In this document: one piece after another, positions 16,078-31,148 of the stretch
How the letters are laid out: the number at the start of each line of letters is the position of its first letter
Numbering within the stretch: the stretch's first letter is position 1
From: Erysipelotrichaceae bacterium RD49
GTDB taxonomy: Bacteria > Bacillota_I > Bacilli_A > Erysipelotrichales > Erysipelotrichaceae
DNA: 35,590 bases
Reading direction: 5' to 3'
Assembly: GCA_015233825.1 (NCBI GenBank)
Contig: JADGIS010000007.1
Span: 1-35,590, forward strand
Program-made: the position numbers and the translations under genes
Notes under the pieces: generated by a model
What the model was told of the DNA's origin: nothing
Seen by the model: only the letters and a program-made list of their open reading frames with translations
Databases searched by the model: none

Positions 16078-17172
16078 ATGAAACAGGATAAACAAGTAAA
16101 CCAGACGCCAGAGAGCGCTGATGAAAAAAAAGATCTTTTCCGGGCTGACTGGAAAGATGACCTGGATGGGGACAGCCGCAAAAAGCTCTCCCGGGTCCAG
16201 CGAAACAAAAAACGAAATTTTTGGATCCCCTGTCTGGTGGTTGCCATCGCCTTAGGGGGGACGTCTCTTGGAGCTGCCTGGTATATGGGCCACAAAGAGT
16301 CGTCCAACCCGATTGTCCAGCTGCAAAAAGCAGAGCAGCAGCAATACAACGACTACGTTGCCTGGATTGATCATTTAACCAAGCCGGCCGATTGGGATGA
16401 TGAAACCTTTGAAGCTCTGAAAACCGCTGCCCTCAATGCCTACAACACTTCCGATTTGGAAGAACTCAATAAGGCAGTTCAAGGCGATGGGGCTGCTGCT
16501 GCCAAATTTGAAGGCCAGACTGAAGCCAAAGTGCAGGAAAGCATCAAGCAATACCAGGATCTGTTCAACAACTCGGCCAATTATCCAGCCCAGATCGTAG
16601 CCCTGGCCAAGGACCCGGGCATGGTGGCGTTTGTTTTGGAATACCCAAACCACATCAATGATGCAGGCACGGAGGTTGTGCTTGGCGATGTCACGCAGGT
16701 GATGCCCGACTTAAAAACCTTTGATCCGGCCTGGGGTTATGTTCCCTACAACGGTTCGATCATGGCCATCAGCGGGGCTGCCCCTACCATTATTGCGGAT
16801 GTCTTCAGCTATTGCCTGGATGATCCAACCCTGACCCCGCTTGTGGTAGCCAACTGGGCCAAAACAACTGGCTATGAGGCCGCTCCGGTCAGTGAAGCAG
16901 AGGATTCGATCTTCTCCGGTGCTGCTTTAACCTTCGGTGTCCCGATGCTGCCGCTGCCCATTTACAAAACCCAGATTTCCGATCAGGTCTCGCAAGGCTA
17001 CCCAACCATTCTCGTGACGGGATCGTATGAAAACCCGAAATACTACGCGTTAGATGGTATTGATGAGAACGGCCAGTGGATTGCGTATGATCCAACCACC
17101 TCCAATTCACCCATTGCTTTAGACCCTGACACCACCATCGATACCGTTTTGAAAGCTTACTCCTTCTGGTAA
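16078..17172 (+). CDS. Catalytically dead paralogue of the C39-family peptidase
   Basis: 364 residues with the same plan as the protein at 5837-6877: charged cytoplasmic tail, one membrane helix (about 48-70), helical linker, then the C39-like domain. WGYVPYNGSIM and DDPTLTPLVVANWAKTTGY match WGYLPYGDSTM and QDPSLTPYALKTYAENNGF of the active protein. The catalytic Cys is Ala234 (ISGAAPT against AGCAPT), the His is Tyr322 (KYYALDG against GHFMVAAG), and Asn320 becomes Thr340; Asp338 remains. The frame is intact, so it is probably a working pseudoenzyme that binds a substrate or partner without cleaving. There is no Shine-Dalgarno; a -10 box lies 6 nt upstream. A strong terminator follows. Confidence 0.8.
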   Translation: MKQDKQVNQTPESADEKKDLFRADWKDDLDGDSRKKLSRVQRNKKRNFWIPCLVVAIALGGTSLGAAWYMGHKESSNPIVQLQKAEQQQYNDYVAWIDHLTKPADWDDETFEALKTAALNAYNTSDLEELNKAVQGDGAAAAKFEGQTEAKVQESIKQYQDLFNNSANYPAQIVALAKDPGMVAFVLEYPNHINDAGTEVVLGDVTQVMPDLKTFDPAWGYVPYNGSIMAISGAAPTIIADVFSYCLDDPTLTPLVVANWAKTTGYEAAPVSEAEDSIFSGAALTFGVPMLPLPIYKTQISDQVSQGYPTILVTGSYENPKYYALDGIDENGQWIAYDPTTSNSPIALDPDTTIDTVLKAYSFW

Positions 17173-26724: not shown

Positions 26725-26948
26725 CATAAAAAGCTTTCCATGATCGGCTGCGCAATTTATCGCTTCGCTCACAATGCGGTTTAGATGTATCCTAAACGAT
26801 TTATTATCGTATATGGTAAGCTTGATTTATGCATCAAACCAATAGCCGAAAGCCATTTATTTGAATGGTCGATATGTTTCGCCCTTTTTTTCGGCTTGTT
26901 TGTGGTAAGCCCGTTTTAAAAATCGTCAAAATGATTTATTCTAAAGCT

Positions 26949-28442
26949 ATGAAGAACCTTCATAGCGAAATCCGCCAGGAAATGGAACTTCTGCATTTTT
27001 CTAAGGCCCTGACCTTGCTGGATTCGATCCCGGAAGATGAAAAAAGTGCGGCAGACTGGTTTCATGCCGGTATTTGCCATAGCGCCGTCTATGCCTGGAA
27101 AAAGGCAGAACAAGAGTATAAGAAAGCGCTCGAGCTTTCGGATTCTCCTGCGTTCTCCAATAAAATCAGGCTGCGGCTGACCCATTCCCTTACCCAGACA
27201 GGCCGGCTGGATGAAGCCGCCTATTGGTACAATGAGGTTCTCGAGAACCCGATCAACGGTTCAGATGGCGACCGCCTCTTTTATGGCGCCCTGCTTGATT
27301 ATGAAAGGGGCGATCTAGACGGCGCACTGGATCTGGCCCTTCGTCTGGCTCGGGGTGAGGAAAAAGCGTCTACGGGAAGAGTCCGCTGTGAAGCCTGGCT
27401 GCTTTGCGGGGATTTGTATTCCGCAAAAGGAGACTTAAAACAGGCAGTCCGTTCCTATGGGGAATCCTTACGGCTTTTAGATTCCTGTCCGCAAAACTGG
27501 CGTATGCTTAGAAAAGCATTAATACTCAACAATCTTGCGGACGTCTATGAACAGTTTGAACACTGGGATCAAGCTGCTTCTGTCTATCAGGCAGCCTGGA
27601 AGTGCATGGAAGAAATCCGTGATGATCAGATTTTCGATCTGGATGGCTACAAGCTGGAAATTCTGATGTCCATGGCTAATTTTTTCGCACTTCAGGATGA
27701 ACTGGACAAAGCTGACAAAATTTTACGCAATGCCAAGCGGATTGCGCAAAAGATTGACTATCCGCTGCGGCTCTATTGGGAAAGCCGGATTGAATACATC
27801 GGCGGCCTTTGTGAGCTGTATTCAGAAAATCCGAAATACAATCCATTTATCAAGCTCTTTGATGCCTGGAAGCTTCAAAGCCGTTATTTATCGCTTTCCC
27901 CTGCTTCAACCAAAGAGTATTTGGCAAGAACCGCCTATTATGCGGCTTATTGTTATGATCCGGCGATCGCCAAAGCGGTCAGTCAAAGAGAGCTCTATGA
28001 GCAGGCCTTGGACGAATTTAAAAAATGCGTATTCAAAGATCCGAAGTTTTTCTTGTTTTGCATCGCATCCGTTCAAAATGAGCTGGCCAATTTAGAAGTC
28101 GAGCAGGATCCGCAAAAAGCTGCCGCCCTCTATGAGCAATCAGTTGCTGGATATCGGGCTTATTTAAAGCTTTGGCCAGAAGATTTACTGGCTCAAAGCT
28201 CGCTTTTGGCGGCGCTTCTCAATCTCTTTGGCGTTTACAGCGAACAAATGCTGCGCGAAAAAGGAATGGAGCTTTTGGATGTCTTTGAACACACCCTGAT
28301 CCCTTTGTACCAGGATGAAGAAACCAAAGCCGCCGCCAATGATGCTTTGGCAAGGCTTCTGGACGATGACCGGCTCTATGCCTTATTTGCCAAACGGCTG
28401 GAAAGTATTCATTCTCACATCAAAAGCCAGACGCCGGCTTGA
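26949..28442 (+). CDS. TPR-repeat protein of unknown role
   Basis: 497 residues from MKNLHSEIRQEMELLHFSKA. It is almost entirely alpha-helical pairs with TPR-like spacing, such as ADWFHAGICHSAVYAWKKAE (about 35-54), ALILNNLADVYEQFEHWDQA (about 196-215) and later FFLFCIASVQNELANLEVE. No catalytic domain, signal peptide or DNA-binding motif. TPR arrays bind peptides or partner proteins. The start is uncertain: a longer frame opens at 26865. ATG 26949 has no Shine-Dalgarno, and a weak -10 (TATTCT, 26937-26942) lies 6 nt upstream with TTTTAA 17 nt further. It is followed closely by the NADAR gene after a terminator, so the two may be linked in function but are separate transcripts. Confidence 0.8.
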   Translation: MKNLHSEIRQEMELLHFSKALTLLDSIPEDEKSAADWFHAGICHSAVYAWKKAEQEYKKALELSDSPAFSNKIRLRLTHSLTQTGRLDEAAYWYNEVLENPINGSDGDRLFYGALLDYERGDLDGALDLALRLARGEEKASTGRVRCEAWLLCGDLYSAKGDLKQAVRSYGESLRLLDSCPQNWRMLRKALILNNLADVYEQFEHWDQAASVYQAAWKCMEEIRDDQIFDLDGYKLEILMSMANFFALQDELDKADKILRNAKRIAQKIDYPLRLYWESRIEYIGGLCELYSENPKYNPFIKLFDAWKLQSRYLSLSPASTKEYLARTAYYAAYCYDPAIAKAVSQRELYEQALDEFKKCVFKDPKFFLFCIASVQNELANLEVEQDPQKAAALYEQSVAGYRAYLKLWPEDLLAQSSLLAALLNLFGVYSEQMLREKGMELLDVFEHTLIPLYQDEETKAAANDALARLLDDDRLYALFAKRLESIHSHIKSQTPA

Positions 28443-28455
28443 GTCTGGCTTTTTT
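28422..28455 (+). terminator. Terminator of the TPR gene
   Basis: Stem aaaagccagac (28422-28432) / gtctggctttt (28443-28453) with following T run. The TGA stop (28440-28442) is inside the loop. Confidence 0.88.
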
Positions 28456-28500: not shown

Positions 28501-28506
28501 TATAAT
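28501..28506 (+). promoter_or_regulatory. -10 box of the NADAR gene
   Basis: Perfect TATAAT exactly 6 nt before ATG 28513; the -35 is weak. The transcript should start at the start codon. Confidence 0.55.
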
Positions 28507-28512
28507 AGAGAC

Positions 28513-29394
28513 ATGAGTACTCGTCCTGTATATCTGCCAAAGCTGACCAAGCCCTTTTATTCCGTTGAAAACTATGAATTCGATTGGACTTCGGGTCAGG
28601 CTGCAGCTCAAAAAAAGAAAAACTCCGCCACTTTGCAGGAACTGTGGCAAGAAAAGCATCCGGATGGGAAGATTTTGGAAGTTTCAACCAAGTCTGATAA
28701 CGAAACCGGCGTCAAGCTTTCTCCCTTCAACCTGACCAAGCGGCTGGCTTCCCTGCGCAAGGAATTTCCCGTTGAAAATATTTACCAGGCCTCTAAAACT
28801 TTCCGCCACGGCGGCCCTTATTACGATCTGCTTGGGGGGGCGCCCAACAAAGCCCTGGCCGATCCAAGACTTCTGGATTCAGGCGACCTGGTTGCCTTTA
28901 CGCTAGAAAAAGAACAGTATCCGGTCAATCCAAGCTTTCTGTTTTATCAGTGGCTCTATTTAAGCGCGCTGCTGGAAAATCCCGGTTTAGCCGCCAAAGT
29001 CAAACAGACCGATGCCTTTTGTGATATTGAATTCAATCCCGCCAAAGGCACCAACAACCAGGCAATGGCGTGTGCGGTGTTCAATTCCCTGGCCAAACTC
29101 AATCTGCTTGAAGAAGCCCGAACCTTTGAAGGATTCAAGAAAATCATGATGGCCCAGGATATCACGGAGATCAAAGAGCAGTCACAAAAAAAGGAAGCGC
29201 CTTTGCAGCTCAATGAACTGCGTTCGGATAAGCGCCGCCAGTCTTTTGCGGTGGGCAGTTTCGTCTCGCATCCAACCATTGGCGTTGGCGAAGTCATTCG
29301 CAAAACACCCGCCAGCTATATCATCCGCTTTAAAGTCTCGGGTCCTAAAACTCTTTCCAAGGATTTTGTCGAGTTCAACTGCAAGAAAGCTTAA
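28513..29394 (+). CDS. NADAR-family protein (DarT1-type antitoxin-like) with C-terminal small domain
   Basis: NADAR enzymes remove ADP-ribose from guanine in DNA and serve as antitoxins to DarT1. The 293-residue protein matches the DUF6977/DarT1-associated NADAR group as I know it: N-terminal RPVYLPK, then KILEVSTKSDNETGVKLSPFNL (the SK/SFNL region), FPVENIYQASKTFRHGGPYY (Glu88, Gln92, Lys95), DPRLLDSGDLVAF, FYQWLYLSALLENPGLA and FCDIEFNPAKGTNNQAMA. Residues 245-293 (FAVGSFVSHPTIGVGEVIRK, then IIRFKVSGPKTLSKDFVEF) add a small beta domain like the C-terminal tudor-like domain of UvrD/PcrA. No DarT is present on either side. There is no Shine-Dalgarno; TATAAT lies 6 nt before the ATG. The family call is firm; activity is inferred. 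Confidence 0.85.
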   Translation: MSTRPVYLPKLTKPFYSVENYEFDWTSGQAAAQKKKNSATLQELWQEKHPDGKILEVSTKSDNETGVKLSPFNLTKRLASLRKEFPVENIYQASKTFRHGGPYYDLLGGAPNKALADPRLLDSGDLVAFTLEKEQYPVNPSFLFYQWLYLSALLENPGLAAKVKQTDAFCDIEFNPAKGTNNQAMACAVFNSLAKLNLLEEARTFEGFKKIMMAQDITEIKEQSQKKEAPLQLNELRSDKRRQSFAVGSFVSHPTIGVGEVIRKTPASYIIRFKVSGPKTLSKDFVEFNCKKA

Positions 29395-29400
29395 GCATAG

Positions 29401-29450
29401 CCAAAAAACCAGCCGGATTTCCAAAATGGAAGCCTGGCTGGTTTTTTTGG
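29401..29450. terminator. Bidirectional terminator after the NADAR gene
   Basis: Arms ccaaaaaaccagcc (29401-29414) and ggctggtttttttgg (29436-29450), with an inner stem. T-rich on both strands. Confidence 0.88.
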
Positions 29451-29561: not shown

Positions 29562-31148
29562 TTAAGCTTCTTTGACTTCTTCAACAACGACTTCTTCAAC
29601 AGTTTCCGGCTTGTTTTTCTTATCCTTTTTGTCTTTCTTTTCTGAGACAAGCGGCTTCATGGTCGGGAATAGGAGAACTTCACGAATCGAAGACTGATCC
29701 GTCAAAAGCATCACGAAACGGTCTACCCCAAGTCCTACACCACCAGTTGGAGGCATGCCGTATTCAAGAGCTTCGACATAGTCGATGTCCATATCATTGG
29801 CTTCATCATCGCCCAGTTCACGCAATTCAAGCTGCTTGACAAAGCGTTCTTTCTGGTCGATTGGATCGTTTAATTCTGAGAAGGCATTGGCATATTCATG
29901 ACCTTTGATAAACAGTTCATAACGGTCAGTGAAGCGCGGATCTTCGGCATTTTTCTTGGCCAGTGGTGAAATCTCGATTGGATAGTGGTAAACGAATGTC
30001 GGCTGTTCGATCGTTTCTTCCACGTATTTTTCAAAGAAAAGATCCAAAATATGGCCGACGGAGTTGTGTTTCTTTTCCAGTTCGATGTCATGTTCTTTGG
30101 CGAGTTGAACCGCTTCATCAAAATCAGTGATCTTTTCAAAATCGATGCCGGTCTTTTCAAAGACGGCCTCGCTCATTTTCACGCGCTTAAACGGCTTGGA
30201 CAGATCAATTTCGGTTCCCTGATAAGTAATGGTCTGGGTGCCTAAAACCTCTTGGGCAACCGAGCGGAACAGACCTTCAATCAAGTCCATCATGCCTTGC
30301 AGATCCGAGTACGCTACATAGGCTTCAAAGGTTGTAAATTCTGGGTTATGGGTCTGGTCCATCCCTTCGTTGCGGAATAGTCTTCCGATTTCATAGACGC
30401 CTTCCATGCCGCCGACAATCAAGCGCTTGAGGTTCAATTCAGTGGCAATGCGCAGATACATATCGATATCTAAAGTATTGTGGTGAGTGACAAAGGGCTT
30501 GGCAGCCGCGCCACCAAGAATGGTGTTTAATACAGGGGTTTCGACTTCGATCAAGCCCTGGCCATCTAAATAATGCTGGATCGCCCGGATAATGCGAGGC
30601 CTGGTCACCGCAATGCGGCGGGCATCATCGTTCATAATCAAGTCGACGTAACGGCGGCGGAAGCGTTCTTCCACATCTGTCAAGCCATGATATTTTTCCG
30701 GCAGCGGGCGGAGCGCCTTGGTTAAGTGGGTATATTCTTTAGCACGAACAGCCAGGTCACCGTGGTCGGTTTTCATCAAGACACCTTCGATGCCGACGAT
30801 ATCCCCTAAATCGCTTTTCTTATACAGTTCGTATTGGTCATCGCCAACGGTATCCTTGCGCACGTAAATCTGGATCTGGCCATCCAGATCCTGGATGTGC
30901 ATGAATCCAGCTTTTCCCATGCGGCGCTTGGTCATGATGCGCCCGGCAACTTTGACGGGAATCTGAAGTTCTTCTAATTCTTCTTTGGTTTTATCCTGGT
31001 AAACCGGCACAATGTCGCCGGTTTTATGGGTACGGTGGTATGCATGGCCAAATGGATCAACACCCATGGCCTGCAGATCCTGCATCTTCTGGCGTCTGAC
31101 TTTTTCCTGCTCTGTCAGCTTCACGCCGCCAGTATTTTTCTGACTCAT
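29562..31148 (-). CDS. lysS: Lysyl-tRNA synthetase, class II
   Basis: Charges tRNA-Lys in the cytoplasm. Length is 528 residues. The N-terminal OB fold (about 55-150, [20 protein letters not shown]) precedes the class II catalytic core: motif 1 [21 protein letters not shown], motif 2 [20 protein letters not shown], motif 3 [18 protein letters not shown] Lys/Glu-rich tail of about 28 residues ([14 protein letters not shown] and [11 protein letters not shown]) extends past the usual end. ATG 31148 has AAGGGG 8 nt upstream. Its promoter has a perfect -35; I see no T-box leader. Confidence 0.97.

Follow-up and report, generated by a model that had tools for sequence, protein, structure and literature searches.

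The NADAR antitoxin associated with the toxin DarT1 (DarG1; BC4488 subfamily; Pfam family PF22397; PDB entry 8BAT) hydrolyzes guanine-linked ADP-ribose. In the E. coli C7 NADAR, residues E88, K95, and D171 are needed for this hydrolysis, while K115 is essential for rescue from DarT1, dispensable for catalysis, and conserved in DarT1-associated NADARs (PMC11543638). K115 is a marker of antitoxin function, not of membership in the NADAR domain family. Stand-alone NADARs are already known, and bacterial NADARs have been described mostly as single domains (PMC11125620, PMC11543638). In E. coli, stand-alone NADARs include the LexA-controlled YbiA and a NADAR of the rpsU-dnaG-rpoD operon (PMC11125620). 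A second point of comparison is the C-terminal Tudor domain of the PcrA and UvrD helicases (PF21196; 7EGT, 7EGS, 9DQS, 6YI2). The mutation of PcrA K727 abolishes the binding of RNA polymerase (RNAP), and the helicase-interaction motif is [VIL]DxxTGE[VIL][VILT] (PMC8318588). Among the UvrD structures, 7EGS has been solved with an RNAP lobe and 7EGT with UvrB. The limited literature searched yielded no report of a fusion between a NADAR and a Tudor domain of the PcrA/UvrD type.

We analyzed a stretch of 35,590 nucleotides (the window) from contig JADGIS010000007.1 of Erysipelotrichaceae bacterium RD49, in which one gene combines the two domain types. The coordinates and strand of its open reading frame have been verified, and we will use the term “NADAR-Tudor protein” for its product. 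The gene and its parts are as follows.

28513–29394, + strand: NADAR-Tudor protein gene (P0001), 293 residues, stop codon included.
28513–29148, + strand: NADAR domain, residues 1–212, assigned by PF22397 and by sequence and fold to 8BAT.
28774–28776, 28795–28797, and 29023–29025, + strand: codons of E88, K95, and D171 in the residue map.
28855–28857, + strand: codon of L115, which replaces the conserved lysine in the residue map.
29149–29241, + strand: variable linker, residues 213–243, poorly conserved and of low model confidence (pLDDT about 44–57).
29242–29391, + strand: PcrA/UvrD-like Tudor tail, residues 244–293, from profile, PDB, Foldseek, and hhalign comparisons.
29347–29349, + strand: codon of K279, which aligns with PcrA K727.

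By its sequence, residues 1–212 form an unmistakable NADAR domain of the DarT1 clade, as the original prediction had claimed. Residues 3–212 match PF22397 over profile positions 2–212 of 212 (E = 1e-71; 241 bits against a cut-off of 27), and the Geobacter lovleyi NADAR 8BAT is the sole PDB match in a sequence search with the full protein (E = 2e-37). The structure prediction proposed for this part agrees: the AlphaFold2 model of the 293-residue protein has a mean pLDDT of 83.5, with values above 90 across most of residues 1–212, and it matches 8BAT in Foldseek with E = 6.7e-21 and a TMt of 0.92. The residues on which the predicted activity depends, E88, K95, and the subfamily aspartate D171, are all retained, while K115 is replaced with leucine. 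The residue mapping is based on motif spacing and on alignment to DarT1-associated NADARs; the numbering of the key positions coincides with that of E. coli C7 NADAR. The window protein probably strips ADP-ribose from guanines in DNA. It shares with DarG1 the full-length domain, the three catalytic residues, and ~37% identity. On the other hand, it differs from DarG1 by the lack of a DarT1 partner in the genome, the loss of K115, the additional linker and Tudor tail, and the chromosomal location of this type of gene, which is kept near lysS in several genera. PADLOC, NCBIfam, and phage records gave no match for the window protein.

The resemblance of residues 244–293 to the C-terminal Tudor domain of PcrA/UvrD appears real but moderate. 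The evidence for it is good, not airtight, because single searches of the tail stay below threshold. In Pfam, the tail has no match and does not reach the PF21196 cut-off; the PcrA-type tails of the same genomes likewise fall below it. When the tails are compared with these PcrA-type tails by hhalign, the match has a probability of 89% (P = 2e-6, 44 columns). The best single match of the tail profile, at 14.1 bits, is a PcrA-like tail encoded in the genome of the window; about 1,800 shuffles reach 7.2 at most. With a profile of six tails, the top PDB match is 7EGT, a UvrD C-terminal domain (E = 0.015), and an earlier profile of four tails also matched, with weak E-values, the RNAP-binding domains of CarD and TRCF. 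The first 14 Foldseek matches of the tail include four UvrD Tudor chains (7EGT, 7EGS, 9DQS, and 6YI2), with E above 1, and a CdnL domain. The structural check of the tail therefore places UvrD Tudors among the top matches, none of them individually significant, and the model confidence of the tail is low to moderate (block pLDDT 44–77). With these qualifications, the PcrA-like end of the original prediction has held up.

The tail shares with the PcrA/UvrD Tudor the pattern F..G..V.HP..G.G.V...F...G.K, the equivalent of the lysine K727, and a C-terminal position on a flexible linker. In the alignment with T. thermophilus UvrD, K279 is matched by a lysine, and it is located six residues before the aromatic residue of the C-terminal motif, the same distance as PcrA K727 (the PcrA C-terminus was taken from a primer listed in PMC8318588). 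The position is occupied by lysine or arginine in six of six tails. Unlike the helicase domain, the tail is fused to a NADAR and shows a predicted helix after the third strand. None of about 40 DarT1-associated and virus-contig NADARs from plasmids and viruses has such a tail.

Tailed NADARs were identified in seven genomes from four genera of one family: G000, G001, G002, and G004 of the window's genus, the Ileibacterium sp. MAG G031, G565, and G541. A search of genome contigs with the single window protein recovered the Ileibacterium MAG only. In four copies compared from two genera, the NADAR part shows a pN of 0.22–0.39 against a pS of about 0.7–0.8, values that are saturated yet below neutrality. 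The fusion is under purifying selection, and the conservation of the gene in four genera, together with a pN far below pS in the copies compared, excludes chance. In a tree of family members, the tailed rows need one change, which corresponds to a single origin of the tail; the support is weak (73/59) and G541 forms a long branch. Frameshifts in the G001 copy were considered as decay and dropped, because the adjoining genes in that assembly are also broken.

The explanation we prefer, to which we give an even chance of being right, is that domestication has turned a former antitoxin into a guanine de-ADP-ribosylase that docks to complexes of transcription or excision repair. A NADAR antitoxin of the DarT1 clade would have lost its toxin and gained a Tudor domain of the PcrA/UvrD type, and the fusion would have become fixed near lysS in the chromosome of a lineage within the Erysipelotrichaceae. 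The NADAR domain would hydrolyze ADP-ribose off DNA guanine, while the tail, on its flexible linker, would dock to the helicase-interaction motif of RNAP beta or UvrB. Docking would place the hydrolase at stalled complexes of transcription or excision repair, where the lesion would be removed by direct reversal. Guanine ADP-ribosylation would presumably have a physiological source. The computed basis of this explanation consists of the NADAR identity, the catalytic residues, the Tudor similarity, the fusion conserved under purifying selection, and the result that no DarT was detected. ADP-ribosylated DNA is also a substrate of nucleotide excision repair (PMC7003065). Against it count that no guanine ADP-ribosyltransferase is known in the window's genome, that the tail is below the Pfam thresholds with a pLDDT of 44–77, and that E88 is replaced with serine in G004 and the catalytic residues are lost in G541.

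The E. coli stand-alone NADARs resemble the window protein in lacking a DarT partner and in occurring in housekeeping, repair, or transcription contexts. They differ in that they belong to other subtypes, are single-domain proteins, and are linked to transcription or repair by their operons only, with no fused docking domain. Activity is already known for NADARs outside DarT1 operons. A NADAR with a docking domain of the PcrA/UvrD type leads to the testable hypothesis of a coupling between guanine de-ADP-ribosylation and either transcription or nucleotide excision repair. If true, it would be an example of an antitoxin turned into a housekeeping repair factor, and would point to DNA ADP-ribosylation in bacteria that have no DarT. 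The complete form of this proposal, in which an antitoxin-derived hydrolase is coupled to transcription or excision repair through the docking domain and deals with a steady source of ADP-ribosylated guanine in a gut bacterium that has no DarT, is more tentative, and we regard it as possible, leaning toward doubt.

Neither PF14487 nor a DarT1 profile built from 11 plasmid DarT1s detected a DarT in the window, as the original prediction had noted, or anywhere in the genome (98.99% complete). The profile detected DarT1 in the positive controls W01 and G423, and also in G625, which belongs to the same bacterial family as the window. The six other tailed genomes also gave no DarT by PF14487 and the DarT1 profile (G565 and G541 by the profile only). 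Since a darT1 gene is present neither beside the NADAR gene nor elsewhere in the genome, the locus does not qualify as a DarTG1 system. The original prediction needs correction on the orphan state, which is not what is new here: PF22397 occurs in 16 of 273 genomes of the family and a clear DarT1 only in G625, so that 15 of the 16 have no clear DarT and orphan NADARs of the DarT1 clade are common. Therefore, the tail, not the orphan state, is the special feature.

Among the rival explanations, the serious ones are that the protein counters incoming DarT1 and that it acts as a sensor. In the first, it is a stand-alone antitoxin against DarT1 or a similar guanine ADP-ribosyltransferase from plasmids, phages, or competitors, and the tail merely targets DNA-bound machines. 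In its favor, plasmids and viral contigs carry DarT1-NADAR pairs, rescue from DarT1 by non-cognate NADARs has been described (PMC11543638), and K115 is retained in G002, G004, G031, and G565. However, the window copy has L115 at the position essential for rescue, G004 carries E88S, all catalytic residues are gone in G541, and NADARs outside DarT1 contexts are poor at countering DarT1 (PMC11125620). The anti-toxin role suggested earlier is thus weakened for the window copy, and as an explanation we consider it rather unlikely.

Several other arrangements were noted among DarT1 and orphan NADAR loci. An IS3 transposase has disrupted the DarT1 gene of a Deinococcus plasmid (L027, 3–1019 and 2214–2495), whose NADAR is intact. 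DarT-like genes are located on either side of a NADAR in L032 (1516–2592 and 3305–3979), and a virus-contig NADAR is fused to a DUF5677 domain (521 aa) with DarT1 adjoining (L049, 5001–6563). In G481, an orphan tailless NADAR is directly followed by a sigma-70-like gene (L086, 1495–2148 and 2145–3443), which recalls the NADAR of the E. coli rpsU-dnaG-rpoD operon. G452 contains tandem duplicate orphan NADARs and then a radical-SAM-like gene (L089, 742–1404 and 1420–2127), and G459 has a single NADAR with the same downstream neighbor.

The second serious rival holds that the protein is a binder or sensor and not mainly an enzyme: the NADAR domain binds ADP-ribose or a related nucleotide, the Tudor tail signals to the transcription or repair machinery, and catalysis is optional or fading. 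This explanation draws on the degenerate copies. In G004, E88 is replaced with serine and the tail is 72% identical to the window tail, against 48% for the NADAR part. The G541 copy has E88T and K95A, lacks D171, and keeps a tail 45% identical to that of the window, with a relative of the TPR protein described below elsewhere in the genome. A purely enzymatic role is therefore weakened: catalysis is not always what selection keeps, and the tail outlasts it in at least one lineage. At the same time, the catalytic residues are kept in five of the seven tailed genomes, and the bin of the relocated, long-branch G541 copy has 10% contamination; this copy may represent an isolated decay. We see the sensor role as improbable, in spite of these copies. 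The notion that the tail is generally more conserved than the NADAR part was also rejected, as it is true only for pairs involving G004.

The surroundings of the gene contain the following features; the original prediction had mentioned neither the linkage of the TPR gene nor the promoter signature of a leaderless mRNA.

26865–28442, + strand: upstream gene of a TPR-repeat protein, 525 aa, whose true start may be internal.
28426–28455, + strand: terminator-like hairpin with T-run, which overlaps the TPR stop codon and separates the TPR gene from the NADAR gene.
28501–28506, + strand: TATAAT -10-like box ending exactly 6 nt 5' of the ATG, a leaderless-mRNA signature.
29409–29448, + strand: inverted repeat followed by a T-run just 3' of the NADAR-Tudor stop codon, terminator-like by eye.
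29562–31148, - strand: lysS, the convergent chromosomal neighbor, near the tailed NADAR also in G031, G565, and G002.

The lysS gene directly adjoins the tailed NADAR in the window and in G565, and the same neighborhood is found in G031 and G002. A relative of the TPR protein is present in six of the seven tailed genomes (adjacent upstream in five, unlinked in G541, absent from G565), and about 60 other genomes searched gave no strong match. A single strict operon of the TPR and NADAR genes was rejected in view of the NADAR gene's own -10 box and of the hairpin that separates the two genes in the window, with a similar one in G001; in G002, there is a 4-bp overlap of the two genes. A one-for-one replacement of the toxin by the TPR protein is an idea weakened by G565 and G541. 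In a further explanation, the substrate of the NADAR is a small molecule, or ADP-ribose linked to protein or RNA; the TPR protein would serve as its scaffold, and the tail would bind that machinery. The distribution of the TPR gene favors it, and NADARs have been proposed to process soluble ADP-ribose derivatives in phages (PMC9503650). However, the domain has D171, falls in the DNA-directed DarT1 clade, and is not YbiA-like, and G565 has a tailed NADAR with no TPR protein, which leaves this explanation very improbable. Also in G002, a gene about 5 kb from the NADAR-Tudor gene (L010, 988–2142, - strand) encodes a macro-domain protein with a weak helix-turn-helix match.

The 6-nt spacing between a TATAAT-like hexamer and the ATG is found in all seven tailed copies (the window, L010, L009, L011, L012, L085, and L091) from four genera. 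The hexamer matches at 4 to 6 of 6 positions in these copies, while at least 4 matches at that place occur in 2.8% of 2,691 background ATGs. The tailed NADAR genes have no good Shine-Dalgarno sequence, whereas many window genes have AGGAGG-type sites. Therefore, a leaderless NADAR-Tudor transcript is indicated and the assigned start codon is supported. That the gene is a role-less remnant of a degraded DarTG1 module, as the missing DarT partner, the lost K115, and the degenerate copies in G004 and G541 might suggest, is highly unlikely given the intact reading frame, the purifying selection between copies of two genera, the acquired tail conserved in four genera, the promoter spacing kept in 7/7 copies, and the place kept near lysS.

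Two other features of the window have been noted. The gene at 16078 (+ strand) shows the same spacing of the -10 box to the ATG. At the other end of the window, a HEARO (OMEGA) RNA (1692–1956, - strand; 93.7 bits) is located 5' of a gene (678–1553, - strand) for a 290-aa RRXRR and HNH (IscB-like) protein, which is apparently short for IscB.
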